Shown here: piece by piece, positions 39,836-54,142 of the stretch | Layout of the letters: every line of letters begins with the position of its first letter | How positions within the stretch are numbered: position 1 is the stretch's first letter | From: an uncultured Bacteroidia bacterium | GTDB lineage: Bacteria; Bacteroidota; Bacteroidia; Bacteroidales; F082 | NCBI GenBank assembly: GCA_902800965.1 | Contig: CADCGK010000014.1 | Span: 1 to 64,000, forward strand | Length of the DNA stretch: 64,000 bases | Direction of reading: 5' to 3' | The notes under the pieces: model-generated | What the model saw: the letters and a program-made list of their open reading frames with translations, nothing else | The model's database searches: none | Told to the model about the DNA's origin: nothing | Made by a program: the position numbers and the translations under genes

Positions 39836-41257
39836 ATGGTCAAGAACCACAATGAGATATGGAGAAAATGCCTTGAAATCATCAAGGACAACACTTCGGA
39901 GCAGGTGTATGCTACGTGGTTCATGCCCATCGTCCCCATCGCTTTTTTGAACAACGTGCTGACCATCCAAGTCCCGAGTCAGTTCTTCTATGAATGGCTT
40001 GAGGAGCACTATCTCGACTTGTTGAAAAAGACCATCAAGAAGGTGCTTGGCACGGAAGGCAAGCTGGAATACAGCATCATCATGGACAGCAGCGACCAGA
40101 CCTATCGCATTGTTGTCCCCGGCACCAACCGTAACGATGTCAAGAACAACACGTTGGGGAGGCCAGCTCCTGAGAACCTGTCGGAGAATCCAGTAAATCC
40201 CTTCATCTTCCCTGGTCTGAAAAAGATGGAGATCGATTCCCAGCTCAACGAAAACTATTCGTTCGACAACTTCATCGAGGGCGACTGCAACCGTTTGGCG
40301 CGTTCCGCAGGTCTCGCGATCGCAGAGAATCCCGGAAAGACGGCATTCAACCCCCTGCTGATCTACAGCCAGACCGGATTGGGCAAAACCCATCTTTGCC
40401 ACGCCATCGGCCTGCATGTCAAACATAAGTTCCCCGACAAGACCGTCTTGTACGTCCAAACCGAGCAATTCATCAACCAGTTTGTCAACGCTTCGAAGAA
40501 CAACAACCTGAACGACTTCGTCCATTTCTATCAGATGATTGACGTGTTGCTCATCGACGACATCCAGTTCCTCGCCAAGAAGACCAGGACCCAGGAGACC
40601 TTCTTCCACATCTTCAACTATCTGCATCAGAATGGCAAGCAGTTAGTGCTGACCAGCGACAAGCTCCCTGTGGATTTGCAAGACATGGAGCCCCGCCTGC
40701 TCTCCCGTTTCAAATGGGGTCTCACGGCCGACCTTCAGATGCCCGATGCCTCCACCCGCGCCGCCATCTTGAAGAACAAGCTTTACACCAACGGCATCGT
40801 CCTTCCCGACGAGATCATCGAGTACATCGCCTCCACTGTACGGACCAACATCCGTGAGCTTGAAGGCGTGCTGATCTCATTGGTCGCACAGTCCTCATTG
40901 AATAAAAAAGCAATTACCATCGAGCTCGCCCAGCAAATCATCGAGCGTTTCATCCGCAACTCGGTGAAAGAAGTCTCAGTGGAATACATCATGAACGTAG
41001 TGTGCGACTTCTTCTCCATCCCCATGGAGACCTTGTCGCAAAACACCCGCAAGCACGAGGTGGTGCAAGCCCGCCAGATCGTCATGTATTTCTCCAAGAA
41101 GTACTCCAACTGCAGCCTCGCGGTCATCGGACAACAATGCGGCAACAAGGACCACGCCACCGTGCATCACGCCTGCAAGACCGTCTCTGACCGCATCGAC
41201 ACCGACAAGCAGTTCAAGGCGATGATGGCTGAAATCGAAAAGAAAATCCTCATCTGA
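39836..41257 (+). CDS. dnaA: Chromosomal replication initiator DnaA
   Basis: DnaA opens the replication origin. The 473-residue protein has domain I (IWRKCLEIIKDNTSEQVYATWF), a short linker, and the AAA+ domain with Walker A TGLGKTH near residue 180 and Walker B LLIDDIQ near 240. The RFKWGLTADLQMPD sequence and domain IV with CGNKDHATVHHACKTV follow. I start at ATG 39836, which aligns with homologs; a TTG at 39794 would add 14 basic residues. The rsmI-like gene starts 6 bases downstream. Confidence 0.97.
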   Translation: MVKNHNEIWRKCLEIIKDNTSEQVYATWFMPIVPIAFLNNVLTIQVPSQFFYEWLEEHYLDLLKKTIKKVLGTEGKLEYSIIMDSSDQTYRIVVPGTNRNDVKNNTLGRPAPENLSENPVNPFIFPGLKKMEIDSQLNENYSFDNFIEGDCNRLARSAGLAIAENPGKTAFNPLLIYSQTGLGKTHLCHAIGLHVKHKFPDKTVLYVQTEQFINQFVNASKNNNLNDFVHFYQMIDVLLIDDIQFLAKKTRTQETFFHIFNYLHQNGKQLVLTSDKLPVDLQDMEPRLLSRFKWGLTADLQMPDASTRAAILKNKLYTNGIVLPDEIIEYIASTVRTNIRELEGVLISLVAQSSLNKKAITIELAQQIIERFIRNSVKEVSVEYIMNVVCDFFSIPMETLSQNTRKHEVVQARQIVMYFSKKYSNCSLAVIGQQCGNKDHATVHHACKTVSDRIDTDKQFKAMMAEIEKKILI

Positions 41258-41263
41258 TCTCCC

Positions 41264-41980
41264 ATGGTTTTCGGAAAGCTTTATCTGGTACCCAACCTGT
41301 TAGGGGCGACAAAACCCGAACAGGTGCTGCCCGCTGGCACACTGGACATAGTCAAAAAGCTCAAGCATTTCGTGGTGGAAAACACCCGCACCTCTCGCCG
41401 TGTGCTGAGCCGTATCGGGATGGACAATCCCATTGACGACATCGAGTTCATCGAACTTGACAAACACAACGCCCACAACCTCGACTTGATGGAGCACCTC
41501 GGCGCCTGTCTGCAAGGCGAGGATATGGGACTGATGTCGGAAGCCGGTACCCCCTGCGTGGCCGATCCAGGTGCATTGGTCGTGGATCTTGCCCATTCCG
41601 CCGGCATCAAGGTGGTGCCGCTGGTTGGCCCCAACGCCATGATTTTGGCACTGATGGCTTCAGGCTTCAACGGACAGGCCTTTGCCTTCCACGGCTACCT
41701 GCCCATCAAGAGCCCTGAAAGGCAGAACGCTATCAAGAACCTTGAACGGCGCTCCATGACCAACAACGAGACCGAGCTTTTCATCGAGACGCCTTTCAGA
41801 AACAACGCCATGATCGCCGATTTATGCAAGAACCTCCACCCTTCCACCCAAGTGTGCGTCGCCTGTAACCTTACCTGCGAGGACGAACTGATCATCAGTC
41901 AGGACGTTGCCGAATGGAAGAAGTTCAAAGGGGATCTGAACAAGAAACCGGCGGTTTTTCTTATTTATAGTGGACGATAG
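41264..41980 (+). CDS. RsmI-like SAM-dependent methyltransferase
   Basis: This 238-residue protein belongs to the tetrapyrrole methylase/RsmI group. RsmI 2'-O-methylates C1402 of 16S rRNA. Recognisable parts are the N-terminal LYLVPNLLGA, the motif SEAGTPCVADPGA (about 88-100) and GPNAMILALMASGFNGQAFAFHGYLP. It is shorter than E. coli RsmI (286 residues), and Bacteroidota carry both a long RsmI and a short paralog like this one, so the rRNA target is uncertain. Repeat copy B lies directly after it. Confidence 0.85.
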   Translation: MVFGKLYLVPNLLGATKPEQVLPAGTLDIVKKLKHFVVENTRTSRRVLSRIGMDNPIDDIEFIELDKHNAHNLDLMEHLGACLQGEDMGLMSEAGTPCVADPGALVVDLAHSAGIKVVPLVGPNAMILALMASGFNGQAFAFHGYLPIKSPERQNAIKNLERRSMTNNETELFIETPFRNNAMIADLCKNLHPSTQVCVACNLTCEDELIISQDVAEWKKFKGDLNKKPAVFLIYSGR

Positions 41981-41995
41981 CAGTCGCTGCGGGTT

Positions 41996-42024
41996 GGATT
42001 GCTTCGCTATCGCTCGCAATGACG
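41996..42024 (+). repeat. Dispersed GGATTGCTTCGCT...GCAATGACG repeat, copy B
   Basis: This 29-base copy differs from copy C at one or two positions. It fills the gap between the convergent ends of the RsmI-like gene (stop at 41980) and queE (stop at 42026). Confidence 0.75.
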
Positions 42025-42025
42025 A

Positions 42026-42616
42026 TTACCGGATGTTGAGGATACGATGGGTTTGGAGGGAAAGTCGCCAGCCGGGGTTGTTCAATACCGCATCCACACA
42101 AGCTTTCATGTTAGCCTGACGTTGCATTTCATTCTCCGAGAAACAAGGTTGAAGGAATCGATAGGTGGCTGTGATGCCATCGTATTGTTTGAGATCCTGA
42201 CCGAGATAGACCACCTTCAATTCATCGCATTGCTTTAAAACACATGGTGCTGCGTCTCCCCCGTCGAATCCAGTTTTAGGTGAGAAGGTCACCCAGTCGA
42301 GGTTATTTGGCAATGCTCGCGTGCCATTGGTCTCGATGGCAATACGTTTGCCTGTCTTCTGCTTTAGTTCCGCGACAAAGGACTCATCGATAAACAAAGA
42401 AGGTTCGCCTCCCGTCAAGACGATCAGCGGGGCATTTGGATAATTGTTGACCTCATCGATGATTGCTTGGGTGGTCATCATTTTCCCTGATTGATGCTGC
42501 GTATCACAAAAAGCGCAGTGCAAGTTACAGCCGCTGAAGCGCACAAAGACAGCGGGCGTCCCGGTGTGGAAGCCCTCGCCCTGAAGAGAGTGGAATATTT
42601 CGTTTATCTTATACAT
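42026..42616 (-). CDS. queE: 7-carboxy-7-deazaguanine synthase QueE
   Basis: QueE is a radical SAM enzyme that converts 6-carboxytetrahydropterin to 7-carboxy-7-deazaguanine in queuosine synthesis. The 196-residue protein starts with INEIFHSLQGEGFHTGTPAVFVRFSGCN. It has the short CX3CX2C cluster motif (CNLHCAFC, about 30-37), VLTGGEPSLF, and the ending LQTHRILNIR. The other three preQ0/preQ1 genes lie just upstream on the same strand. Confidence 0.96.
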   Translation of the reverse strand: MYKINEIFHSLQGEGFHTGTPAVFVRFSGCNLHCAFCDTQHQSGKMMTTQAIIDEVNNYPNAPLIVLTGGEPSLFIDESFVAELKQKTGKRIAIETNGTRALPNNLDWVTFSPKTGFDGGDAAPCVLKQCDELKVVYLGQDLKQYDGITATYRFLQPCFSENEMQRQANMKACVDAVLNNPGWRLSLQTHRILNIR

Positions 42617-42629
42617 GGGATGGAAGAGA

Positions 42630-42727
42630 GGAACGGCGAATGTTACGAATTAAACCGAACGGCGAATTTTACGAATTAAACGAATTGACTCGATTAGGTT
42701 CGTAAAATTCGTTTAATTCGCCGTTCC
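42630..42727. repeat. Inverted repeat between queE and queD
   Basis: The ends GGAACGGCGAA (42630-42640) and TTCGCCGTTCC (42717-42727) are perfect inverted copies. Inside, the 13-base unit CGAATTTTACGAA (42663-42675) recurs inverted as TTCGTAAAATTCG (42699-42711), and ATTAAACGAATT is also repeated in inverted form. The whole could fold into a long imperfect hairpin in the queD-queE spacer. Confidence 0.7.
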
Positions 42728-42728
42728 A

Positions 42729-43082
42729 TTAATCAAAGTTCTGCGGCGCATCGTCTTTGATGTACGACGCCTTATTATCCCTCGACTCCCACACGTCGGC
42801 ACGATAGCAGTTCGGGACGGTATCGACGATCCAATGGGCCAGGTTTTCGGCCGTCGGGTTGAAGTCCAGCACCTCGTTGATGTTGGTATGATCGATCTTG
42901 CCATGGATAAGCTTTTTGATCAAGGTGAAGTCGCACACCATGCCATTGCTGTCGAGATGTTCGGCACGGCAATACACGTTGATCTTCCAGTTGTGGCCAT
43001 GAAGGTTTTCGCACTTGCTCTCATAGTCGAGGTAGAGCTGGTGGCAAGCAGATATTTCAAGGGTTTTTCTTACGTAATACAT
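42729..43082 (-). CDS. queD: 6-carboxytetrahydropterin synthase QueD
   Basis: QueD turns dihydroneopterin triphosphate into 6-carboxytetrahydropterin, the QueE substrate. The 117-residue protein has the zinc-binding histidines in SACHQL and LHGHNW, the catalytic Cys in SKCENLHGHNW, and DFTLIK and DHTNINE motifs. It sits between queC and queE in the operon. The 46-base gap to queC contains short CAGTTGGT tandem repeats. Confidence 0.94.
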   Translation of the reverse strand: MYYVRKTLEISACHQLYLDYESKCENLHGHNWKINVYCRAEHLDSNGMVCDFTLIKKLIHGKIDHTNINEVLDFNPTAENLAHWIVDTVPNCYRADVWESRDNKASYIKDDAPQNFD

Positions 43083-43084
43083 AT

Positions 43085-43124
43085 TCAGTTGGTCAGTTAA
43101 TCAGTTGATCAGTTGGTCAGTTAC
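43085..43124. repeat. Short tandem repeat between queD and queC
   Basis: About four imperfect copies of a 9-11-base unit built on CAGTTGRTCAGTTR fill most of the queC-queD spacer. Confidence 0.6.
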
Positions 43125-43128
43125 CCCG

Positions 43129-43800
43129 TTAGGGGTTATAGCTCGGTAGGGTTTCATATTCGGTAGTGTCTTCGATGCCGGCGTCACGGAGGGCTTGGAT
43201 GCGTTCGCGGCAGGTGCCGCATTTGCCGCAGTGCTTCTCACCGCCTTTGTAGCAGGAATAGGTCTCGCTATAATCCAGGCCAAGAGCCTTGCCGTGTTCG
43301 GCAATTTCTTTCTTGCTCAGATACGTGTAAGGCGCCCACACCTTGATGTTATCATACGTTCCTGCCGACATGGCCTCTGACATCGCATTGACGAAGGTTG
43401 GGCGACAGTCTGGATAGATGGAATGGTCCCCGGCGTGGTTGGCAATCATCACACGCTTCAGTCCGTTACTCTCGGCGATGCCTGCAGCGATGGCCAGCAT
43501 GATACCGTTGCGGAAAGGCACTACCGTTGACTTCATGTTCTCATCATCGTAATTGCCATCAGGGATGTCGGCAGCGGTCATCAGCAGGGCGCTCTTGAAA
43601 TAGCGGTGCATAAACTCCAGTGGCACCACGATATGCTTGATACCCAAGCGTTGGCAGTGCGTGATGGCGCAGATCCGCTCACGTCCGTTCTGGGTGGAAC
43701 CGTAATCAAAGGTGATGGCCAACGCGATCTCGTCCTTGAATTCGTACAACATCGTAGTGGAATCCATGCCTCCCGATATGATAATCACCGCGTCTTTCAT
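43129..43800 (-). CDS. queC: 7-cyano-7-deazaguanine synthase QueC
   Basis: QueC uses ATP and ammonia to make preQ0 from 7-carboxy-7-deazaguanine. The 223-residue protein has the PP-loop SGGMDSTT (residues 9-16), [26 protein letters not shown], and the zinc-binding cysteines in [19 protein letters not shown] near residue 195. Its start overlaps the queF stop by 4 bases, indicating translational coupling. Confidence 0.96.
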
Positions 43801-44267
43801 GAGTTGTGGAATGCTGAAATTAAACGTTGCTTCACCAAGTCCTGATGATCGGCGTCGCCATAGTTGGCGAAAGGCTTGATGGAGATGCCGCCACGAGGAT
43901 TGAACAGGCCGATGACCTCCAGGTATTTGGGATCCATCAGTTTGACCAGGTCCTTCATGATGATGTTCACGCAGTCTTCATGAAAGTCGCCATGGTTGCG
44001 GAAGCTGAAGAGATAGAGCTTCAGGCTCTTGCTCTCCACCATCAGCGTGCGAGGAATGTAATTAATTATAATGTGTCCGAAGTCAGGCTGACCCGTCTTG
44101 GGGCACAGTGAGGTAAACTCTGGACAGTCGAGGGTCACCAGATAATCGTTCTCCGGGTGTTTGTTCTCGAAAGTCTCCAGCACCTCGGGGGTATAGTCGT
44201 AGCTGTAATGGGTGTTTTGGTTCCCTAACAGCGTGACACCTTGAAGTTCTTGTTCGTTTCTAGACAT
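43797..44267 (-). CDS. queF: NADPH-dependent 7-cyano-7-deazaguanine reductase QueF
   Basis: QueF reduces preQ0 to preQ1, which is then inserted in tRNA. The 156-residue protein is the short YkvM-type form. The catalytic Cys and Asp lie in [12 protein letters not shown] (about 53-64), the substrate-binding [20 protein letters not shown] follows, and NPRGGISI closes the core. It is the first gene of queF-queC-queD-queE. Promoter element at 44285-44292 gives a leader of about 10 bases, too short for a preQ1 riboswitch. Confidence 0.96.
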
Positions 44268-44284
44268 GGGATGGAATTTGGTTG

Positions 44285-44292
44285 CAAAAATA
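44285..44292 (-). promoter_or_regulatory. Predicted -7 promoter element for the que operon
   Basis: TATTTTTG on the minus strand, 17 bases upstream of the queF start codon, fits TAnnTTTG. Confidence 0.6.
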
Positions 44293-44342
44293 GCAAAATG
44301 TTCTCAATCAAGGTAATTTTAGCAAGAAGCAACCCGTGGCCG

Positions 44343-44525
44343 TCAAATTTTAATCAAGTCCTCACCCAGTACAATTGATATTTTGGCGAGAGTGCGTAGT
44401 GTGAAGTTGTGTGTTCCGCCAAGCCATCGTGACACTTCGGCTTCAGTCTTTTTCGTGCTTCTAGCGAGGTCCCGTTGCGACATTCCCCGCTTCTTTAACA
44501 TCCCATCTAGTTTAGGGATTGTCGT
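44343..44525 (-). pseudogene. Truncated XRE-family antitoxin (HigA-like)
   Basis: An open frame of about 60 codons reads MLKKRGMSQRDLARSTKKT, then EAEVSRWLGGTHNFTLRTLAKISIVLGEDLIKI and a stop at 44343-44345. The HTH and the phrase SRWLGGTHNFT are typical of Bacteroidota HigA/XRE antitoxins. These normally have 30-40 more residues before the HTH. Here a stop codon lies just upstream and the best start is ATG 44501, so the gene seems 5'-truncated or frameshifted. No toxin gene is found beside it. It could still be a short functional HTH. Confidence 0.6.
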
Positions 44526-44527
44526 TT

Positions 44528-44785
44528 AATTCTTTCTGTTTGACTAAACTGGTTGTTTGTTTTTGTGGTGTCGCCACAAGTGGCTGGGTTTTGGCCGTTT
44601 TTTACATCAAATCCCGAGGAGTCTAGTCAACAATCTGGCGAAGCAACTCTCTCCCTTTTGTGTCTTGTTTTATGGTGCCACAAAGGTATAACAATTTTAA
44701 AAATTACCTTATAAAGTAAGTTTCTTCAAACAATAAGATAATCCGAGAAACACCGCGATCTCAAAATCAATCCCCTATTTGTCGA
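44528..44785. other. Non-coding region between the antitoxin remnant and the SUMF1 gene
   Basis: I find no gene in this stretch. It contains TTGACTAAAC (44540-44549) and an inverted near-copy (44621-44630), a short palindrome TTGTGGTGTCGCCACAA-like at about 44563-44579, and a minus-strand promoter element TACCTTTG at 44681-44688. It may hold the remains of a toxin-antitoxin promoter region. Confidence 0.45.
44681..44688 (-). promoter_or_regulatory. Predicted -7 promoter element upstream of the XRE remnant
   Basis: TACCTTTG on the minus strand fits TAnnTTTG and would drive transcription toward the antitoxin remnant. Confidence 0.45.
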
Positions 44786-45901
44786 TTATCTATAATCCAT
44801 GACCAAACGAAGTCCATAACAAGTATCCCTATAACTGGGATCAAGTTTATGGCGCTTCGATACACGACAAAAAGAAGATTGAGAGTACCAACTGCCGCCA
44901 CGTACCACACGTTTCGATCCACTTGAAGGGCCTGAGGGATCAGTTTGAGACCCTGTATTGTAACAACCATACCAGTCCTGACACCATTCCCACACGTTAC
45001 CACTCATATCGTAAAGACCAAGTGGATTTGGCGATTTGCTCTTCACAGGATGAGACGAAACATTGCTATTTTCAGTATACCAGGCCACACTACTGAGGCT
45101 ATAGCTACCAGAATACACAAATCCATTTCTATTGTTTCCTCCCCCTGCCGCATATTCCCACTCAGCTTCTGTGGGCAAACGAAAGTTTGCTCCCGTAAGT
45201 TGGTTCAGTCTGTAGATGAAATCTTGGCACTCATACCAATTTACATAATAAATAGGATAACTGTCCCCTACACCTCGCAATGGCTTTGAGTGTTCGACCA
45301 TATCACGCTGATGACTGACCGATGTTCCAACAACAGCTTTCCACAAAGCCTGTGTCACTTCTGTCTCACACATATAGAAAGAATTCACAGTCACACTATG
45401 AACAGGTCTTTCGTCATTATCAGTTTCATAATCGCCACTGCCCATTTGAAACGTACCACCTTCGACAAGTTTCATCACGAAAGATACACCTCCCACTGTG
45501 AAAAAGGGATCGCCTGTTGAGGTGGTCTGTTTCCTTTTTTGAGAGGCCACCCCTACATTACTTTTCCCATTGATATCATTTAACACAAAAAACAAGGTTG
45601 CAACCACAGCAATCAGACATAAACTACTGATTAAAAATATCGGCCACTTTTTTCGACACTTCGTTTGAGCTACTTCTATCTGTTGTGATTGGAGTACAAT
45701 AGGTCGTTGAATGGAAGTGTCTGCCTTAGAATTAATCTCATTGAAAAGACTCGCTATTTCAGGCACTGTTTTGGCTTTCTCCCATTTCTCCATGCCTTTA
45801 CGCCAAATCAAAGTGTCAGGTTCAACACCATGAGCGAGAAGTTCTTCTTGCGGGAAAGGACCTTGTCGAGATCTGTTTTTATCAACAAAATAATAGTTCA
45901 T
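44786..45901 (-). CDS. GYF_2-TM-SUMF1 (FGE-sulfatase domain) membrane protein
   Basis: This 371-residue protein has three parts. Residues 1-53 are a GYF_2-type domain (YYFVDKNRSRQGPFPQEELL, LIWRKGMEKWEKA). A single TM follows at about 87-107. A formylglycine-generating-enzyme-like domain spans about 132-371 (VEGGTFQMGS, ETEVTQALWKAV, RLPTEAEWEYAA, YDMSGNVWEWCQDWYG, RVVRGGSWYSQSSFC). Compared with true FGE, the first catalytic Cys is replaced by Ser (GGSWYSQSSFC), so sulfatase-activating chemistry is unlikely. It is the last gene of the seven-gene operon and may act as a membrane adaptor. Confidence 0.85.
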   Translation of the reverse strand: MNYYFVDKNRSRQGPFPQEELLAHGVEPDTLIWRKGMEKWEKAKTVPEIASLFNEINSKADTSIQRPIVLQSQQIEVAQTKCRKKWPIFLISSLCLIAVVATLFFVLNDINGKSNVGVASQKRKQTTSTGDPFFTVGGVSFVMKLVEGGTFQMGSGDYETDNDERPVHSVTVNSFYMCETEVTQALWKAVVGTSVSHQRDMVEHSKPLRGVGDSYPIYYVNWYECQDFIYRLNQLTGANFRLPTEAEWEYAAGGGNNRNGFVYSGSYSLSSVAWYTENSNVSSHPVKSKSPNPLGLYDMSGNVWEWCQDWYGCYNTGSQTDPSGPSSGSKRVVRGGSWYSQSSFCRVSKRHKLDPSYRDTCYGLRLVMDYR

Positions 45902-45912
45902 CTAAATCATAT

Positions 45913-46884
45913 TTACATAGTCCTAGCAAATTGTTCTATGCTAAACGAACCATCAAGGTTTTTCACCTTAATCTTTCCCAAAAGAATGTCAAAGAAAAAG
46001 GCTCGAATACGTTCTATTGTCAAAACTGCAGGTTTCCCATCACTATCTACACCAAGGTCATATGTCTTGAGAAGCTGTGACCCAAGTGCTGCCGCTGTGA
46101 GCAAGAAATGATTTTGGAACTTATCTGTGTCTATCAAATCCGCAGCCAAAACCTTACCCACAACGCTATAGCTATGAAGTGAACGTTGTTGTTCTCCATC
46201 AGTAAGCGTTGTACGCAAATCATCCGATGCTAGATTGATTTCTATCTTTCCACTTTCTGCACTTTCATCTTTATGACGATATAAAGATCCGAGGTCAGCT
46301 AATGCAAGCGAGAATAGACGTGTCGTCTTTGTATAGTTTACACGCTCTACGCTAAATACAGAAGGCAACAAAAGATTCACTTCACCATCCAATTCAACGA
46401 ACGGAGAAATGAAAGTGCCAAGAATGCAATCTTTTGCAAATAGAGACTGGGTGGCAAAGACGCCACCAATGACAACACAATTTTCAAGGACGATTTCATC
46501 GCCATACAGACTGCCCGATACAAAAGTGTTGCATAGCGTAATACTTTTCGCATTGACATCCGAGCAAAAAGTTGTGTTGCATCTCATGGCTCTTGTAACC
46601 ACCGAAGAGGCTGACCCAACTGCTTTGCGGAACATCACATCACCCACAACGTCATTATTAATATACAGTTCACGTTGGGTGAAAACTGCACCCTTCACTT
46701 CAAGTGGAGCAGCCTCTATTGTCAACTTATTGGCATAGATAGGTCCTTCAACTACAGTCTCGCCTACAACTGTAACTGTACGTGATAGTTCCGACATCTT
46801 ATTGGGTAAAATGCCACCTTTAACTATATTATTGTCAAGTCGGAGATTTGTATCCGTGACATGAACTTCTTTCAAATTACTCAT
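45913..46884 (-). CDS. Bactofilin-like beta-helix protein
   Basis: The 323-residue protein has no signal peptide. Residues 35-180 are a run of short beta-strand turns (TVVGETVVEGPIYANKLTIE, LEVKGAVFTQRELYINNDVVGDVMF, FVSGSLYGDEIVLENCVVIGGVFAT). These resemble the right-handed helix of bactofilins and other polymer-forming cytoskeletal proteins. The C-terminal 140 residues are unlike anything I recognise. It is located 11 bases after the SUMF1 gene's upstream neighbour boundary, inside the operon. A filament or scaffold role is an inference from the fold pattern. Confidence 0.6.
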   Translation of the reverse strand: MSNLKEVHVTDTNLRLDNNIVKGGILPNKMSELSRTVTVVGETVVEGPIYANKLTIEAAPLEVKGAVFTQRELYINNDVVGDVMFRKAVGSASSVVTRAMRCNTTFCSDVNAKSITLCNTFVSGSLYGDEIVLENCVVIGGVFATQSLFAKDCILGTFISPFVELDGEVNLLLPSVFSVERVNYTKTTRLFSLALADLGSLYRHKDESAESGKIEINLASDDLRTTLTDGEQQRSLHSYSVVGKVLAADLIDTDKFQNHFLLTAAALGSQLLKTYDLGVDSDGKPAVLTIERIRAFFFDILLGKIKVKNLDGSFSIEQFARTM

Positions 46885-46894
46885 ATTTACTAAT

Positions 46895-47920
46895 TTATTT
46901 GTTTAACATCTGATTTATCATTTCCCTGACTCGCCGAGAATGGTTATCATCGCCTGCAATATTGTTGGCTATTTCCGTTTGAATATATGAATTCAATAGT
47001 TCAATATTATTCTCACTATCTCCTTCCCAATTCACATTTTCAAGACAATCGCATAGTTTTTTCTGCAATCCAGAATTCTTAAAAGAATAATAACTAGGTG
47101 TTATGCATTGGCTTTCGATATTTTGGTTTTCGGACACAGTCTTCAAATAGCAAACAGGTACAAGATAAGAGTCGTTACCTGAACCTTCAATACACGACTC
47201 CAAAATTGTTCTCTCTGTTCTCGCTTTAGACACGAGAAAATCTTGGACTTTATTCATCGATTCCAAAGCGTGATGCTTGACCGTTGCCGCGCTAATCTGT
47301 GCTTGGAGCATGCTGCTTTCCTTACTCATTGTTACCGCAGTCTGAACCATGTCAGTGTGAAGCATTCTGTCGCTTTGTGTGTCCACTTCTTTCACTAAAT
47401 CAAACACAGGCTGATCAGCTTGATGAACTCGAACAGAAAGTTCATTATTCAAGTCGGCGAACAATTTCTGATACCTTGCAGTTGTACGGGCATAATCTTC
47501 CGCCATTGTCTTTTGTTTCTCTTTAAGGGAAGCTGCTTGTTGCCGCAGAAGTATCAACCTCGCTTCGATAGTCTGTTCCAATTCCACCTTTTGAGTTGAC
47601 AAATCAGTTCTGACCGTATGGAAAAAACCATCAATAATGGTTTTCGATACTTTTTCAGCATTATCTGCAATGGCCACACACTGCGCGGTATTCAATGCTC
47701 CAACGCTTGCAGTCAAACCATTGATGTGTTGGTTGCAATTCACTACACTCGAATCAAACGGAGAAGTGTCAACATGAATATCTACTTCTACAAGTTCCCG
47801 TGCAGTTCCACGAACAGTTACTGGCATGCTGCCACCGTTTTGTGAAGCTGGGTATCTAACTATTTCTGTCTTCTCATATGGAACTTCTACGGTTCTCCTA
47901 AAACGTCTACTATAACTCAT
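46895..47920 (-). CDS. Coiled-coil protein, paralog 2 of the SPFH operon
   Basis: I do not recognise this 341-residue family. Residues 95-190 are strongly coiled-coil (LSTQKVELEQTIEARLILLRQQAASL and following). It shares a layout with the next upstream gene: a VDTSP motif near the N-terminus, a GFFHTVRTDLS segment before the coil, a ELSVRVHQADQPVFDLV block after it, and a C-terminal VREMIN helix. There is no signal peptide or TM, so it is predicted cytoplasmic. Gaps of 10-11 bases separate it from both neighbours. Confidence 0.7.
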   Translation of the reverse strand: MSYSRRFRRTVEVPYEKTEIVRYPASQNGGSMPVTVRGTARELVEVDIHVDTSPFDSSVVNCNQHINGLTASVGALNTAQCVAIADNAEKVSKTIIDGFFHTVRTDLSTQKVELEQTIEARLILLRQQAASLKEKQKTMAEDYARTTARYQKLFADLNNELSVRVHQADQPVFDLVKEVDTQSDRMLHTDMVQTAVTMSKESSMLQAQISAATVKHHALESMNKVQDFLVSKARTERTILESCIEGSGNDSYLVPVCYLKTVSENQNIESQCITPSYYSFKNSGLQKKLCDCLENVNWEGDSENNIELLNSYIQTEIANNIAGDDNHSRRVREMINQMLNK

Positions 47921-47931
47921 AACTGCATTTA

Positions 47932-48840
47932 TTATAGTGTTTCAAAATCAGCAGACGCATACATCTTTTTGATCATGTCTTTCACACGGGGCGACACGTT
48001 CGATGCTTCTAAGATTCGGCTAAACTCTTCAGATACCATAGCGTTTGCTTCCGTTTGTTTCCATTTTAATTCATCCGAATCTCTTACCGTATTGAAGATT
48101 TGGCTAGCATTAGTAGCAGATAATCCATCAGGAGTCGATACATCTGTCCGAGGAATGCCAGCAACATCATTGATGGTCTCACAAATCACAACAGGAATTT
48201 GACAAGTTTGCTCGGCATTGCCTTTTGGATTGGATATCAAAATCTTTTCTGTCAGAGCGCGTTGTTCTCCGATTTGAGCTAGAAAATCTGTTGATTGTTC
48301 CAAAGCAAGCTGTGTATTGCGCTTCATCTTGGAAACAAGAATTTGCTGACTTTGTTCAATTCCTTCAGTCTGTGAAGTCACAACCCATGAAGTCAAGGCA
48401 TTCATTCTGTTAGACGAAGTTGCCATGTGTTTGTTCACCAACTCAAATACAGGTTGGTCAACTTGACGGATTCTCTGTTCCAATTCTTTGTTGACACTTG
48501 TGAATATCTTCAAGTACCTTTCTGCTATACGGCCGTACTCACGCTCCATATTAGACTTAATACTTATCAATTGCCGTTTCTGTTGGCCTAATTGCATAAG
48601 CAATGCCTCCACGCGGCTTTGTTTGTTGGCAATTTTTTGGGATATTTGAGACCGTACCAAAGTAAAGAAACCTCTATTAACATTGCTGCAAACTTTATTT
48701 GCACTTTGTATCTCTGCGGCAACAACAGCACTCTGCATGGTCACAACCGCTGCTGTAGTACCCTTAACATGGTTGGAAACACTTTGTATTTCAGCCGCCA
48801 TAGGAGTGGTATCAACCTCACAAGGAATTAATGTAGCCAT
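47932..48840 (-). CDS. Coiled-coil protein, paralog 1 of the SPFH operon
   Basis: This 302-residue protein is a diverged duplicate of the gene at 46895-47920. Matching features are VDTTP near residue 10, GFFTLVRSQIS, the coil VEALLMQLGQQKRQLISIKSN, the nearly identical block ELEQRIRQVDQPVFELV, and VKDMIKKMY at the end. It has no signal peptide, TM or catalytic motif. The two paralogs could form a heteromeric coiled-coil structure in the cytoplasm. Family unknown to me. Confidence 0.7.
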   Translation of the reverse strand: MATLIPCEVDTTPMAAEIQSVSNHVKGTTAAVVTMQSAVVAAEIQSANKVCSNVNRGFFTLVRSQISQKIANKQSRVEALLMQLGQQKRQLISIKSNMEREYGRIAERYLKIFTSVNKELEQRIRQVDQPVFELVNKHMATSSNRMNALTSWVVTSQTEGIEQSQQILVSKMKRNTQLALEQSTDFLAQIGEQRALTEKILISNPKGNAEQTCQIPVVICETINDVAGIPRTDVSTPDGLSATNASQIFNTVRDSDELKWKQTEANAMVSEEFSRILEASNVSPRVKDMIKKMYASADFETL

Positions 48841-48858
48841 ATTCTTTACTCCTATTCA

Positions 48859-50934
48859 TTATAATGTGTTGTTATCTTCCTCTTCAGGAATGCTTGGGAT
48901 GTCGTCATCTTCATCCTCCGGAATATCAAGGGCATCCTCTTCTTCATTCTCATTTTCATCTTCTGGTATATCAGGGACATCCTCATCTTCCGGAATATTA
49001 GGCATCATCGCCTCGTCATTTTCAGGAATCGAATGAACATCGTTTTGTTCCTCAAACACACCGTCATCCTTAAATGTTTGTTTCGCGTCTTCAACAGCAA
49101 TGCGACTAACAGCATCCAAAGCATTGACTGCAATAGAAGGAAGATTGAGTGACAAATGCTCATAAGTCATCTCTTCGACACTTGGCTCTGGCAACAAAAC
49201 AGATTCTTTTGCGAGGAGAGGATTTGTCATAGCGAGAGGTTTACGGCGTTCATCAAGGTTTTGAACCTCCGAAGCGGCAACTGCCATCGAATTGGAATAG
49301 CCATCTTGCAAGCGCGCGTCATAGAACTCAACATGGCCAAATCTTTCAGCCTTAAGTGCAATATCCTCTTGGAGGCGATCCATATAGTCGCTAAACTCTT
49401 CCTGCACTTTCTTGAATTCTTGTGCTTGCATCTCAAATGCAGTCAAAACCTCCATACTGTTTTCTTGTTTCTCCACAATGGTTTTATCCAACGATGCGCC
49501 TTCTTCGCCCATACTGTCGAGGGTTTTTTGAAGCTGTGACAGAGTGTTATACGCTTCCACATATTCGCTTAATGTCTGCTGCATATTATTAATAATGTCA
49601 GCGCTCTCGGCATGGTTGGAACGGTAGAATGCATCAACATCCTGATGCCATTTGTTCAGATAACTGATTTTTTGGTCGTGGATTTGACCATAGATACGAA
49701 TACGTTCAACTCGGTTTTCCATCATAAGACGTTGAACCATAGGTGCTACGATTTCCTCATAAATCTGATGGACACCAAAAGGAACGCTTGCATGGCTGTT
49801 ATCCTCGGCAGTCCATTCATCAGCGAACAAATTATAACGCACTCTGGAACTCTCTCGTAGTTGGAATGGTTCATATCCTTGAATCGAATCAGAATAATCA
49901 AAATGTTCATTCCTTATTCGTCTGATTTCCTCAGCTTCCAAAAGCGGTGAATAATGGTTGTATGGTGCCTTTAATATCCTAAACAACAAATCGTTTGAAC
50001 TGTTTACCACTTTGTCTGTAGATGCCAACTTCATTGCTGAAATTGTCTGCACCGACATTGCCATCGTGTGCATCAGATGCTTAAGAATGTCTTCAAATTG
50101 TTCTGTATCACTCGACAAGGAATCCTTTAGTTTGTTCAACTTGCAGAAATCATCTATTTCTCTGCTATAGCGTTTATCATCAAACACATTGACAACTGGG
50201 TGTCCCGCAGGGTCGTTTGTGGAATGTTCATTCAAAAAAGTGAGATATTCACTATTGTCAGCCACCAAAGGCAAATCGACGGACTTAACTTCCGTATCAT
50301 TCATGCAAAAGGAAATTGTTCGGATTGAGCGGTCAAGTTTTCCGATATAGTCACTTTGACTTACCTCCTGAATAGAAAGAGAATAATCGTTGGTATCAAT
50401 GTTCTCCGCTTCATTGGATGTTTCCACTATTGGAGCTTCCGTCGTGAGTTTCTCCAATTGCGACATCGTCTCAACAAGTAAGTCGTTCTGACGCGACATT
50501 TGCAAACTCACACGAGAATTGGGTACATTGCCTGCATAATCAACGACAAAGCACTTGTCTTCATAGGCTATCTGTTGGGCAACTGGGACATAGGCCACAC
50601 CCATTTTGGTGACCTTATAATCCCTGAAAATGTTATCGTATTCTTTTTTCTTGTCTGCAATCTTTCCATCAATAGCTTCAATCTGTTTGTCGTATTGGTT
50701 TTTACGGACAAAATACATAAAAAAAGCTATTATCGTAAGGAACCATTTCCAAGCGCCACTCTTTTGAAGTTCAACTTTGTCTCTATCCTCTTTTAATTCT
50801 TGGATTTGTTTTTCAAGAGCCTCTTCCTGGCGAACCACACGTTCTGCGGCTTGTTCATAGTAATTGAATAATAGTTTTGCCTGATCCTGATAAATATTAC
50901 TAGAATCATCAAAAATTTTTCCTGTTGATGCCAT
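48859..50934 (-). CDS. Large coiled-coil protein with membrane segment and acidic IPE-repeat tail
   Basis: This 691-residue protein is of unknown family. Residues 28-62 form a coiled coil, 67-84 a hydrophobic stretch (WKWFLTIIAFFMYFV) and 85-110 a second coil, so a hairpin or single membrane anchor is likely. The middle (150-420) is mostly helical without known motifs. Another long coil covers about 430-560. The last 55 residues hold five repeats of the type D-I-P-E-D-E-D, giving a highly acidic tail. It may bridge the membrane and the SPFH protein. Confidence 0.7.
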   Translation of the reverse strand: MASTGKIFDDSSNIYQDQAKLLFNYYEQAAERVVRQEEALEKQIQELKEDRDKVELQKSGAWKWFLTIIAFFMYFVRKNQYDKQIEAIDGKIADKKKEYDNIFRDYKVTKMGVAYVPVAQQIAYEDKCFVVDYAGNVPNSRVSLQMSRQNDLLVETMSQLEKLTTEAPIVETSNEAENIDTNDYSLSIQEVSQSDYIGKLDRSIRTISFCMNDTEVKSVDLPLVADNSEYLTFLNEHSTNDPAGHPVVNVFDDKRYSREIDDFCKLNKLKDSLSSDTEQFEDILKHLMHTMAMSVQTISAMKLASTDKVVNSSNDLLFRILKAPYNHYSPLLEAEEIRRIRNEHFDYSDSIQGYEPFQLRESSRVRYNLFADEWTAEDNSHASVPFGVHQIYEEIVAPMVQRLMMENRVERIRIYGQIHDQKISYLNKWHQDVDAFYRSNHAESADIINNMQQTLSEYVEAYNTLSQLQKTLDSMGEEGASLDKTIVEKQENSMEVLTAFEMQAQEFKKVQEEFSDYMDRLQEDIALKAERFGHVEFYDARLQDGYSNSMAVAASEVQNLDERRKPLAMTNPLLAKESVLLPEPSVEEMTYEHLSLNLPSIAVNALDAVSRIAVEDAKQTFKDDGVFEEQNDVHSIPENDEAMMPNIPEDEDVPDIPEDENENEEEDALDIPEDEDDDIPSIPEEEDNNTL

Positions 50935-50952
50935 GGGGATTTGTTTTATGAG

Positions 50953-51651
50953 TTAGTATTTCTTTCTTCTTGCCAAGATTCTTTCCAGTCGTCCGACCTC
51001 TTCCTCTATTCTTTCCTTATTCATTGTGGTGTTTCTCACCAAAACCTTTAGGTCTTCCACTGACTGGACAAATTGTCCATCGAAGTTTTTTGCTTCGTTG
51101 CTATCTGAAGGCGTGATAAAGCGCATCGATTCATGGAGAGACTGAAGCCGTTGTGTAATTAATGGATCCAAATCCTTAACAGCAGCCAAATAGTCCATGA
51201 GATTATCCATAACAATTCGAAGCGACACTTTACCCTTCATAATATTCTGCTCCTTATCATAAATCTGTTGGACTTTTTCACCTGAACGGAATGTCGCATA
51301 ACGCCCAATGAAAAGAATGAAAAGGATAGCCAATTGTCCTATCAATTGGTGTTTGAAAGGTATCTGAAACAGCATACCACAAATCATCCATCCCAATGCT
51401 AACAACGAGAAGATATTCATCGTTACCAGATGGATTCCCAGCATACCCACCTCTTTTTGTGCAGGTTTGCTAAGATTAAGCAACGGGAAAATAGTAAATA
51501 TAGCGAATTGGGTAAAGACCAAACAGGTTATTATGATGTCAAGTATCCTTACATTCTTTTCAAGTGATTGGCCAAAAAGAATAAAACAGGCAATAATAAG
51601 CCCATAACCTAATAGTATGGCTAAAGTACGATATATCTTTTTTGCGTTCAT
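50953..51651 (-). CDS. Four-helix membrane protein with C-terminal coiled coil
   Basis: This 232-residue protein has four probable TM helices at about 9-27, 36-58, 72-98 and 104-122. A cytoplasmic C-terminal half (about 125-232) follows, predicted helical and ending in a coil rich in charged residues (MNKERIEEEVGRLERILARRKK). I chose ATG 51651; the longer frame upstream overlaps the preceding gene. No family assigned. Its place right after the SPFH gene suggests it is the integral-membrane partner of the complex. Confidence 0.7.
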   Translation of the reverse strand: MNAKKIYRTLAILLGYGLIIACFILFGQSLEKNVRILDIIITCLVFTQFAIFTIFPLLNLSKPAQKEVGMLGIHLVTMNIFSLLALGWMICGMLFQIPFKHQLIGQLAILFILFIGRYATFRSGEKVQQIYDKEQNIMKGKVSLRIVMDNLMDYLAAVKDLDPLITQRLQSLHESMRFITPSDSNEAKNFDGQFVQSVEDLKVLVRNTTMNKERIEEEVGRLERILARRKKY

Positions 51652-51668
51652 AATGTTGATTATTTTGA

Positions 51669-52979
51669 TTAAATTTTCTGTCCACACTTTGGGCAAAATC
51701 TTGATGAAGGGGGAATTGCGGCTCCGCATCGGGTGCAAACATTTCCAATTGGAGCAGCATTTTGCTGACTACCACACTGAGGGCAGAACAACGCACCTGG
51801 AGCAAGAGGAGCCCCACAAGAGCAACAAACCGCCCCTGAAGTTTGTTGCTGCATGAGAGTAGTTCCGCAAGAAACGCATCTGCGTGCCGTTTTTAGATTA
51901 TCCGAACCGCATTTAGGACATGGATTGTATTCGCTACCACAATAAGGGCAAAAACGCTCTGTCGTTAAATGCTTTTTTGAACAATTGGCGCAATATACTT
52001 CTCGCACACCCATTTTAGGATTGTTTTGTGGCATTGCTCCCATACTACCTTGAGGCATTACCCCTCCTCCTTGAGAGCCAGAGAACGTAGGTTGATTATA
52101 TTGTGTTTGCATCATTCCAGAACCAATACTACCGCCCATACCACCGCCCATCATATTAATGGCCATAATACCCGCAAGAAGTCCATTGCCTCCTGATGCG
52201 TTACCTATTTGATCAACAGCATTGTTCGCCATGTCAAACATTTGTTCTTGCTGCCATGAATGGCCAGTAATAGACATAGTCGCTTGTTTGGCAATTGCAT
52301 CTGATATTTCCCTCCCTTTTTGAGTATTTGTATCGATTGAAATATCATTCACATAGAATTTTGTCATATTCAAGCCGTACTCTTGCCAAAACGGTAATAA
52401 GTTATTCTTGATATAATCTGACAAGGCATCAAGATGCGCAGATACACTTTTAAGGCCAACTCTTTGGGCAGTCATGAACTTGACTATTGCACTTTTCGAT
52501 TTTGTAGAAAACTCCCCATACGCCTGAGAAAGCATATCCGATTCAGTGAACACATCTTTGGTTCCAACCATTTTAATTAAAAATTTCTCGGAATCAGAAA
52601 CTTGAATTCCATATTGTCCATTAGCTTGCAACGGAATCATGGTTTGGTAATCAGCATCATGCACAGGCATGTTATTTACCGACCAATTCAAATTTGCAGG
52701 AAACAGCTTGTTGACTATCCACACTTCCGCAGTAAACGGATTTTTCCCTCCAAATGGAATTCCAAACAACGAGCGTAGAATAGGTAGGTTCTCTGTGTCT
52801 AGTGTATGCTTTCCTGGGCCAAATTTTCCCATAAGCTGCCCTTTACTAAAAAGGAGAGCTTCCTGAGACTCATATACAATTAATTGAGTATAAGTACTCA
52901 AATTGGTTTGAGGATAGCGGTATGCAAAAACAAACTCGTTGCTTTTAGGTTTCCAACTTGCGCAATCAATTAATGCCAT
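51669..52979 (-). CDS. SPFH-domain protein with four C-terminal zinc ribbons (YdjI/virion-core-like)
   Basis: The N-terminal 250 residues are an SPFH-type domain of the YdjI group (NEFVFAYRYPQ, VYESQEALLFSKGQLMGKFGPGKHTL, NPFTAEVWIVNK). A glycine/methionine-rich linker spans about 265-325. From residue 330 to the end eight CxxC pairs form four zinc ribbons (CANC/CPYC, CPKC/CVSC, CCSC/CPQC, CTRC/CPKC). YdjI relatives work with membrane-stress PspA systems in Bacillus. No PspA gene is present here. It is the first gene of the operon; the ATG at 52979 or 52988 may be the start. Confidence 0.85.
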   Translation of the reverse strand: MALIDCASWKPKSNEFVFAYRYPQTNLSTYTQLIVYESQEALLFSKGQLMGKFGPGKHTLDTENLPILRSLFGIPFGGKNPFTAEVWIVNKLFPANLNWSVNNMPVHDADYQTMIPLQANGQYGIQVSDSEKFLIKMVGTKDVFTESDMLSQAYGEFSTKSKSAIVKFMTAQRVGLKSVSAHLDALSDYIKNNLLPFWQEYGLNMTKFYVNDISIDTNTQKGREISDAIAKQATMSITGHSWQQEQMFDMANNAVDQIGNASGGNGLLAGIMAINMMGGGMGGSIGSGMMQTQYNQPTFSGSQGGGVMPQGSMGAMPQNNPKMGVREVYCANCSKKHLTTERFCPYCGSEYNPCPKCGSDNLKTARRCVSCGTTLMQQQTSGAVCCSCGAPLAPGALFCPQCGSQQNAAPIGNVCTRCGAAIPPSSRFCPKCGQKI

Positions 52980-53431: not shown

Positions 53432-53782
53432 TTATTCCTCTAAAGACGATAGGTAATTCAGCACATTGGCCTTCAATGCAGGAAGATCATCCTTAATGGT
53501 CAGCCAAAGCACTTCGGGTAAAATCCGGTAGTAACCATGTACTAACACATGGCGCATCTTTTCAATCTGAAGCCAAGGAGTATCAAGATGCTCATCTTTG
53601 AATTCCGGACTCAACATATAGGCTGCCTCACCGACAATCTCAACATTTTTTACGACAGCAAAATACAAAATCCTATCTTTTATGAAACGATCATAATCAT
53701 AGCCCTCAACAAACTCCTCAACGTTGTTGATGGCATCAAGCATGTGCTCAAGCCTTCCTCTATCGTTAACTCGCTCTCTCAT
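53432..53782 (-). CDS. hepT: HepT-family toxin (HEPN domain, DUF86)
   Basis: HepT is a HEPN ribonuclease toxin neutralised by AMPylation by its MntA partner. The 116-residue protein carries the RX4HXY catalytic motif as RHVLVHGY (Arg77, His82, Tyr84). ILYFAVVKNVEIVGEAA near residues 38-54 is typical of DUF86. The start overlaps the mntA end by 17 bases, as usual for this toxin-antitoxin pair. All key residues are intact, so it is probably functional. Confidence 0.9.
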   Translation of the reverse strand: MRERVNDRGRLEHMLDAINNVEEFVEGYDYDRFIKDRILYFAVVKNVEIVGEAAYMLSPEFKDEHLDTPWLQIEKMRHVLVHGYYRILPEVLWLTIKDDLPALKANVLNYLSSLEE

Positions 53783-54065
53783 AAATCAATATTTTATCTT
53801 CATCGGCAGTCTTAGCAGCAAACGGGAGTAAACTTCCCTCCTGAACCAAATCGACTTTCTTGCCCATTGCGGCTTCAAGTGAAAGAATAATAGCCGCATA
53901 CTTAAACAATGAAATACGGGCATCGGCATCAAAACGAACCAGTAAATCAATGTCGCTTTCAGGATTCTCCTCCCCACGGGAATATGAGCCAAACAACCAT
54001 GCTTTTTCGATGGGTAGGGTTGTTAAACAATCTTGAAGCTTATGTATTATTTCCGCGTTGAGCAT
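53766..54065 (-). CDS. mntA: MntA-family minimal nucleotidyltransferase antitoxin
   Basis: MntA antitoxins transfer AMP to the tyrosine of the HepT HEPN motif. The 99-residue protein has the GSX10DXD signature (Gly26-Ser27 to Asp38 and Asp40) and a third carboxylate in KKVDLV. ATG 54065 was chosen; the frame upstream to 54119 lacks family similarity and contains the promoter. A TATCTTTG element lies at 54090-54097. Confidence 0.9.
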   Translation of the reverse strand: MLNAEIIHKLQDCLTTLPIEKAWLFGSYSRGEENPESDIDLLVRFDADARISLFKYAAIILSLEAAMGKKVDLVQEGSLLPFAAKTADEDKILIYERAS

Positions 54066-54089
54066 GTTATAATCAATTACATGTAACCG

Positions 54090-54097
54090 CAAAGATA
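54090..54097 (-). promoter_or_regulatory. Predicted -7 promoter element for mntA-hepT
   Basis: TATCTTTG on the minus strand, 24 bases upstream of the mntA start, fits TAnnTTTG. Confidence 0.55.
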
Positions 54098-54142
54098 CAT
54101 TATTTTTCTGAAAACACAATAACTACCACTATAAAAACCAAA

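Follow-up and report, generated by a model that had tools for sequence, protein, structure and literature searches.

The window, a stretch of 64,000 nucleotides from an uncultured bacterium of the Bacteroidales, contains an operon of seven ORFs, which we call A to G and which lie on the minus strand between positions 52979 and 44786 (Table 1). The gaps from A–B to F–G are 17, 18, 18, 11, 10, and 11 bases, and the seven same-strand genes with gaps of 10–20 bases described in the first-pass annotation are thus present, the measured range being 10–18. The GC content of the operon is 40.8%, as compared with 47.6% for the rest of the window. No RNA element shared by the loci described below was matched in Rfam, and the DNA upstream of the operon showed no conservation across them. 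The operon lies directly upstream of four genes that, by inspection, form a putative queuosine-precursor cluster (QueE, QueD, QueC, and QueF; positions 42026–44267, minus strand), and a toxin–antitoxin pair consisting of a HepT-like protein and an MNT nucleotidyltransferase precedes A by 450 bases in the same orientation (positions 53432–54119).

Table 1. Features of the operon, in window positions
Feature	Length (aa)	Position	Strand	Basis
A: SPFH (Band_7_1) and four C-terminal zinc ribbons	436 (439 if read from an upstream TTG)	51669..52979	-	PF13421, Zn_Ribbon_1
B: 4-TM protein with cytoplasmic coil	232	50953..51651	-	four hydrophobic segments
C: helical protein of no known family	691	48859..50934	-	no significant Pfam, NCBIfam, or PDB match
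C, residues 60–78: hydrophobic aromatic tip between two N-terminal helices		50701..50757	-	model; all loci
C tail, residues 613–691: acidic Ile/Leu-Pro repeats, variable adaptor region		48859..49098	-	7 motifs
D: long-helix protein, paralogue of E	302	47932..48840	-	sequence comparison; model
E: paralogue of D with N-terminal extension	341	46895..47920	-	sequence comparison
F: most conserved core member, no known family	323	45913..46884	-	78–87% identity within clade 1
G: GYF_2, TM, and FGE-sulfatase; exchangeable, non-core	371	44786..45901	-	PF14237, PF03781
GYF_2 domain of G		45758..45895	-	sole GYF_2 in genome

The inferred product of A contains a Band_7_1 domain (E=6e-36), followed by four stretches matched by Zn_Ribbon_1 in Pfam, and is, as had been proposed, a YdjI-type SPFH protein with four zinc ribbons. 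Also in keeping with the earlier description, hydropathy analysis revealed the four membrane segments of B, and D and E are paralogues (29.7% identity, E=3e-29) that arose, as judged from their tree, by a duplication older than every locus seen. No homology of D or E to C was found. The structural model of D, which is weak (pTM 0.25), displays a helix of 135 residues (pLDDT 68). No family in Pfam or NCBIfam matched B through F above the cut-off, PADLOC and PHROGs gave no match for these proteins that holds up, and searches of the PDB with profiles of C, D/E, and F returned nothing convincing. C, D, E, and F thus match no family in any of these collections. As for C, the first-pass annotation had assigned it a membrane segment; no transmembrane helix exceeded the hydropathy threshold, and what remains of the assignment is a short hydrophobic tip between long N-terminal helices. 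These helices (residues 14–64 and 68–113) are the only region of the AlphaFold model that is better than poor, the model as a whole (pLDDT 39) being unusable for fold searches. The tip is hydrophobic in all loci, and from the model its residues (60–78) are likely to contact the membrane.

Two candidate identities were examined, and neither gained support. F had been described as bactofilin-like, a claim that found no support: Pfam gave nothing at E<=1, the bactofilin domain PF04519 included, the PDB search returned bactofilin A at E=0.8 only, profile–profile comparison with true bactofilins (hhalign) gave a probability of 8%, and the repeat periodicity of the sequence was not significant. F may be beta-rich, as bactofilins are, and even a beta-helix, but with no significant sequence or profile match to them it is not assigned to that family; a canonical bactofilin is encoded elsewhere in the host genome (C12:25797–26087). 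For D and E as PspA/ESCRT-III proteins there was no sequence match and, with a weak model (pTM 0.25), no PDB match at E<=0.001. The observation that no PspA is present at the locus proved stronger than originally claimed: PF04012 is absent from the whole genome, whereas control genomes were positive.

The same genes recur elsewhere. Scanning species genomes with E yielded eight loci in which the order and strand of A–F are kept as far as the contigs reach, at 52–87% identity (43–59% for B). A profile of F yielded seven further genomes from other families of the order, again with A–F in the same order and with A, C, and F at approximately 51–63% identity (45% for one truncated A), and a search of the class with F added one match outside the order, a genome of a different order (G1178) that has E and F where a contig ends. 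The order and strand of A–F are thus common to 16 other Bacteroidota genomes, far more than chance would produce, and are incomplete only at contig ends; including the window, there are 17 loci, of which contig ends truncate four and leave 13 complete. The unit is rare, being carried by one of 173 genomes in the host's own family and by eight of the order's 393, with one fragment in addition, and C as a query revealed no further carrier in a sample of the phylum; all of these searches covered the Bacteroidota. The cluster is seen in too many genomes for misassembly to explain it, though many carriers are metagenome-assembled genomes (MAGs), which calls for caution with neighbors known from a single locus. 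No named operon with such content was found in the family libraries or open-access papers searched; the literature retrieved on SPFH proteins (zinc ribbon, bactofilin, GYF, and YdjI) comprised work on Psp, on ESCRT, and on conflict systems, in none of which it is described. The A–F set is real and apparently undescribed. Co-occurrence in other Bacteroidota, which the first-pass annotation had put forward as a check, was therefore found, with the difference that the conserved unit is a core of six genes, A to F, and that the SUMF1 gene, G, is exchangeable. In genome G194, 37 residues resembling the middle of F lie at a contig end and are not preceded in frame by any earlier part of F (L027:9956–10063); this stretch, which was left out of the carrier count, is possibly a remnant of the operon.

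Does the distribution of the core reflect descent or transfer? We compared rpoB across all 17 carrier genomes. In the tree of the core genes the window is nested (support 96/95 and 99/97) within a group of loci, clade 1, to which its A, C, and F are 74–82%, 71–84%, and 78–87% identical, respectively; B is the fastest-evolving core gene (43–59% within clade 1). F is only 54–57% identical to its counterparts in clade 2. Meanwhile, the rpoB gene of the host is 67–71% identical to that of the clade-1 carriers and more similar, up to 74%, to that of several clade-2 carriers. Forcing the window to group beside its rpoB relatives lowered the log-likelihood by 1493 units (AU p=6e-4), and monophyly of the clade-1 hosts was rejected by rpoB (p=4e-46). 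AU tests thus reject vertical descent of the core. A MAG named Alistipes (L003) is a second case of conflict between core and rpoB. With B left out, the correlations of the core genes among themselves were 0.86–0.97, as against 0.35–0.38 with rpoB, which indicates that they moved as a block. As to vehicles, phages gave no match to C, plasmids none to C, E, or F, and viral contigs none to F, and a phage or plasmid origin was accordingly rejected.

The gene that follows F, in contrast to the core, varies. G has the domain architecture previously assigned to it, a GYF_2 domain (E=3e-13), one transmembrane segment, and a SUMF1-type FGE-sulfatase domain (E=7e-49). At other loci GYF_2 and the transmembrane segment are followed by FGE-sulfatase (L006b, as in the window), YARHG (L002b and L004), SH3 (L006a), weak L12-like matches (L002a and L003), or a C-terminal part of no known kind (L005), and at L025 the GYF_2 gene is replaced by zinc-ribbon genes, one with SH3. 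L006 contains a tandem duplication (585 bp, 96%; L006:5620–7909) that runs from the end of F into the start of G, the two copies of G sharing 121 identical N-terminal residues and then continuing into unrelated C-termini. Cassette exchange is thus seen directly in one genome. No repeat of the 3' end of G, such as a diversity-generating retroelement (DGR) template, was found within positions 40000–50000 of the window. Cassettes with YARHG resemble previously described zinc ribbon–TM–YARHG proteins (PMC3355149) in having a cytosolic adaptor, one transmembrane segment, and a periplasmic YARHG domain (in two cassettes), for which peptidoglycan binding has been proposed (PMC3355149), but differ in carrying GYF_2 where those proteins have the zinc ribbon and in being linked to an SPFH operon.

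The tail of C varies as well. In most of clade 1 it consists of acidic Ile/Leu-Pro repeats, whereas L008 (C at L008:6773–9052) has in their place a genuine C-terminal domain of ribosomal protein L7/L12 (E=3e-17), L021 a LEM match (E=4.5e-6), and L024 three zinc ribbons; at other loci C ends in a plain acidic tail. The Ile/Leu-Pro tail is present at six of six loci with a GYF_2 gene and at none of the seven scorable loci without one (L007 and L021, where the sequence ends too early, and L009, which has no C, were left out). The two states track the tree closely, and hence the association reflects few independent events, maybe one or two.

GYF domains bind proline-rich peptides, and the GYF_2 domain of G is the only one in the host genome. 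In relatives that lack the operon (13 genomes), GYF_2 is found at the C-terminus of SPFH proteins: all ten proteins scanned in the host's own family are such fusions, as are 29 of the 30 best-scoring GYF_2 proteins of the order, which end in proline runs (lower-scoring hits are mostly shorter). GYF_2 therefore looks, from these sequences, like an adaptor of SPFH systems, and the position of the proline tail beside GYF_2 suggests that the fusion proteins may bind themselves head to tail. Fusions of this kind (Band_7_1–GYF_2 with poly-proline C-termini) are common in the Bacteroidales (L049–L061 and L070–L099). Their loci resemble the operon in using the same SPFH Pfam family and GYF_2, several with a B-like 4-TM neighbor, but carry GYF_2 on the SPFH protein itself instead of on a bitopic neighbor such as G. 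Some of the fusion genes in the host's family are followed by a 4-TM gene that matches the B profile with a probability of 94.5, a score that membrane proteins can inflate; none of C to F was seen in the short stretches surrounding the fusions.

SPFH proteins oligomerize on membranes. Starting from what was observed (a conserved unit with a shared history, its horizontal transfer, the exchange of cassettes, the association of tail and GYF_2, and the fusion of SPFH to GYF_2 elsewhere), we propose, with about even confidence for and against, that A–F is a mobile inner-membrane SPFH scaffold that docks exchangeable, envelope-facing proteins. The scaffold would lie on the cytoplasmic side of the inner membrane. 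A, whose family is oligomeric, would be held there by B and by the hydrophobic hairpin tip of C, and C, D, E, and F would make up the bulk of the complex. Docking surfaces would be provided by the zinc ribbons of A and by the C-terminal tail of C, which would be free. In the clade that includes the window, the GYF_2 domain of the bitopic G would bind the acidic Ile/Leu-Pro repeats of the C tail and thereby gather at the platform a periplasmic domain (FGE-sulfatase here; YARHG, SH3, L12-like, or of no known kind elsewhere) that may sense or act on the envelope. Recombination would swap G while the scaffold stays constant. A membrane-surface scaffold had been suggested by the first-pass annotation; it is consistent with all of the data and is something that we infer rather than observe. 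The role at the envelope, which could be upkeep or conflict, is the weakest step. Against the proposal as a whole, the link between tail and GYF_2 follows the tree, the structural models available for C and D are weak, the operon has no linked stress-response gene or regulator, and its patchiness and the defense-type neighbors at three loci fit a role in conflict at least as well.

Could the operon instead be a variant of the Psp response? In Bacillus subtilis the SPFH protein YdjI requires the membrane partners YdjG and YdjH for its localization (PMC8581546), and pspA-ydjGHI combines, in a single operon, a PF13421-type SPFH protein, membrane partners, and a zinc-ribbon partner (PMC8581546). 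By analogy, A and B would correspond to YdjI and YdjG/H, D and E would stand in for PspA in membrane repair, and G would be a sensor. Membership of A in the YdjI family, the absence of PspA from the genome, the long helices of D and E, and the adjacent 4-TM partner all favor this idea, which we nonetheless consider improbable. D and E show no sequence match to PspA and, in a search at E<=0.001 with a weak model, no fold match, the Psp system has nothing that corresponds to C and F, and rarity and mobility distinguish the operon from Psp. Unlike pspA-ydjGHI, moreover, the operon resides in a genome without PspA, includes C, D, E, and F, which have no counterpart there, carries a swappable GYF_2 cassette, and is transferred horizontally as a block. 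Very improbable, in our judgment, is a morphogenetic cytoskeleton in which F, as a divergent bactofilin, would position the enzymes of the wall. Bactofilins do cooperate with wall endopeptidases in other bacteria (PMC10945521), some cassettes bear the wall-related modules YARHG and SH3, and L002 has an M15 peptidase gene, but F could not be shown to belong to the bactofilins, of which the genome encodes a canonical member at another site, and patchiness within a genus would be atypical of a shape determinant.

A conflict or anti-phage system, in which the core would detect infection or damage to the membrane and the tail and cassette would be recognition or effector modules, is likelier than these two, although we still judge it unlikely. 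The operon is rare, patchy, and horizontally moved, its core is constant and its periphery variable, and FGE-sulfatase (FGS), L12/ClpS, and GYF domains are also found in described variable-effector conflict systems (PMC7159879). These systems share with the operon a conserved core with a periphery of variable domains, drawn from an overlapping repertoire, but are defined by an NTPase core (vWA-MoxR, STAND, or GTPase) that is missing here. Neither an NTPase nor a nuclease nor any other toxic enzyme is encoded in the core, which has no match in PADLOC and gave none in phages (searched with C) or plasmids (searched with C, E, and F). In L003 the operon and its GYF_2 gene are immediately followed, in the same orientation, by a type II Zorya system (ZorA2, ZorB2, and ZorE2; L003:13265–16231), a restriction-helicase protein is encoded near the operon in L022, and the HepT/MNT pair lies upstream of A in the window. 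Neighbors of this kind occur in just three of approximately 15 loci, and the other neighbors are ordinary; we regard them as a lead and not as evidence. A defense role of the operon, which the first-pass annotation had raised, is possible. A bolder version, which we consider distinctly doubtful, is that A–F is an undescribed six-protein mobile machine of the Bacteroidota inner membrane, with four proteins of families new to the libraries, that acts as a docking base on which GYF_2, zinc-ribbon, L12, and LEM codes pick the exchangeable transmembrane effector assembled on an SPFH ring for use in conflict with other bacteria or phages.

Under the reading that we prefer, that of a scaffold with exchangeable clients, the operon bears on a wider question. 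Little is known of the partners of SPFH–zinc ribbon proteins beyond the Psp response, and here is a strictly conserved set, four core proteins of which lie outside every library searched and which moves as a block between bacterial families. The natural swaps of tail and cassette make what SPFH platforms recruit, and how, testable with few proteins, and the operon suggests a job, that of SPFH-system adaptor, for the uncharacterized GYF_2 domain.

Finally, we note two gene arrangements found next to the core. A GYF_2-YARHG gene is followed by a gene for an M15 D-Ala-D-Ala carboxypeptidase-like protein in L002 (L002:9648–10487, by Pfam) and in L004 (L004:13501–14367, by sequence likeness). Directly upstream of A in L024 (L024:1409–3124) is a zinc ribbon–TM–GldM chimera with all four GldM domains, that is, the periplasmic part of the gliding and type IX motor protein GldM mounted on a zinc-ribbon anchor.
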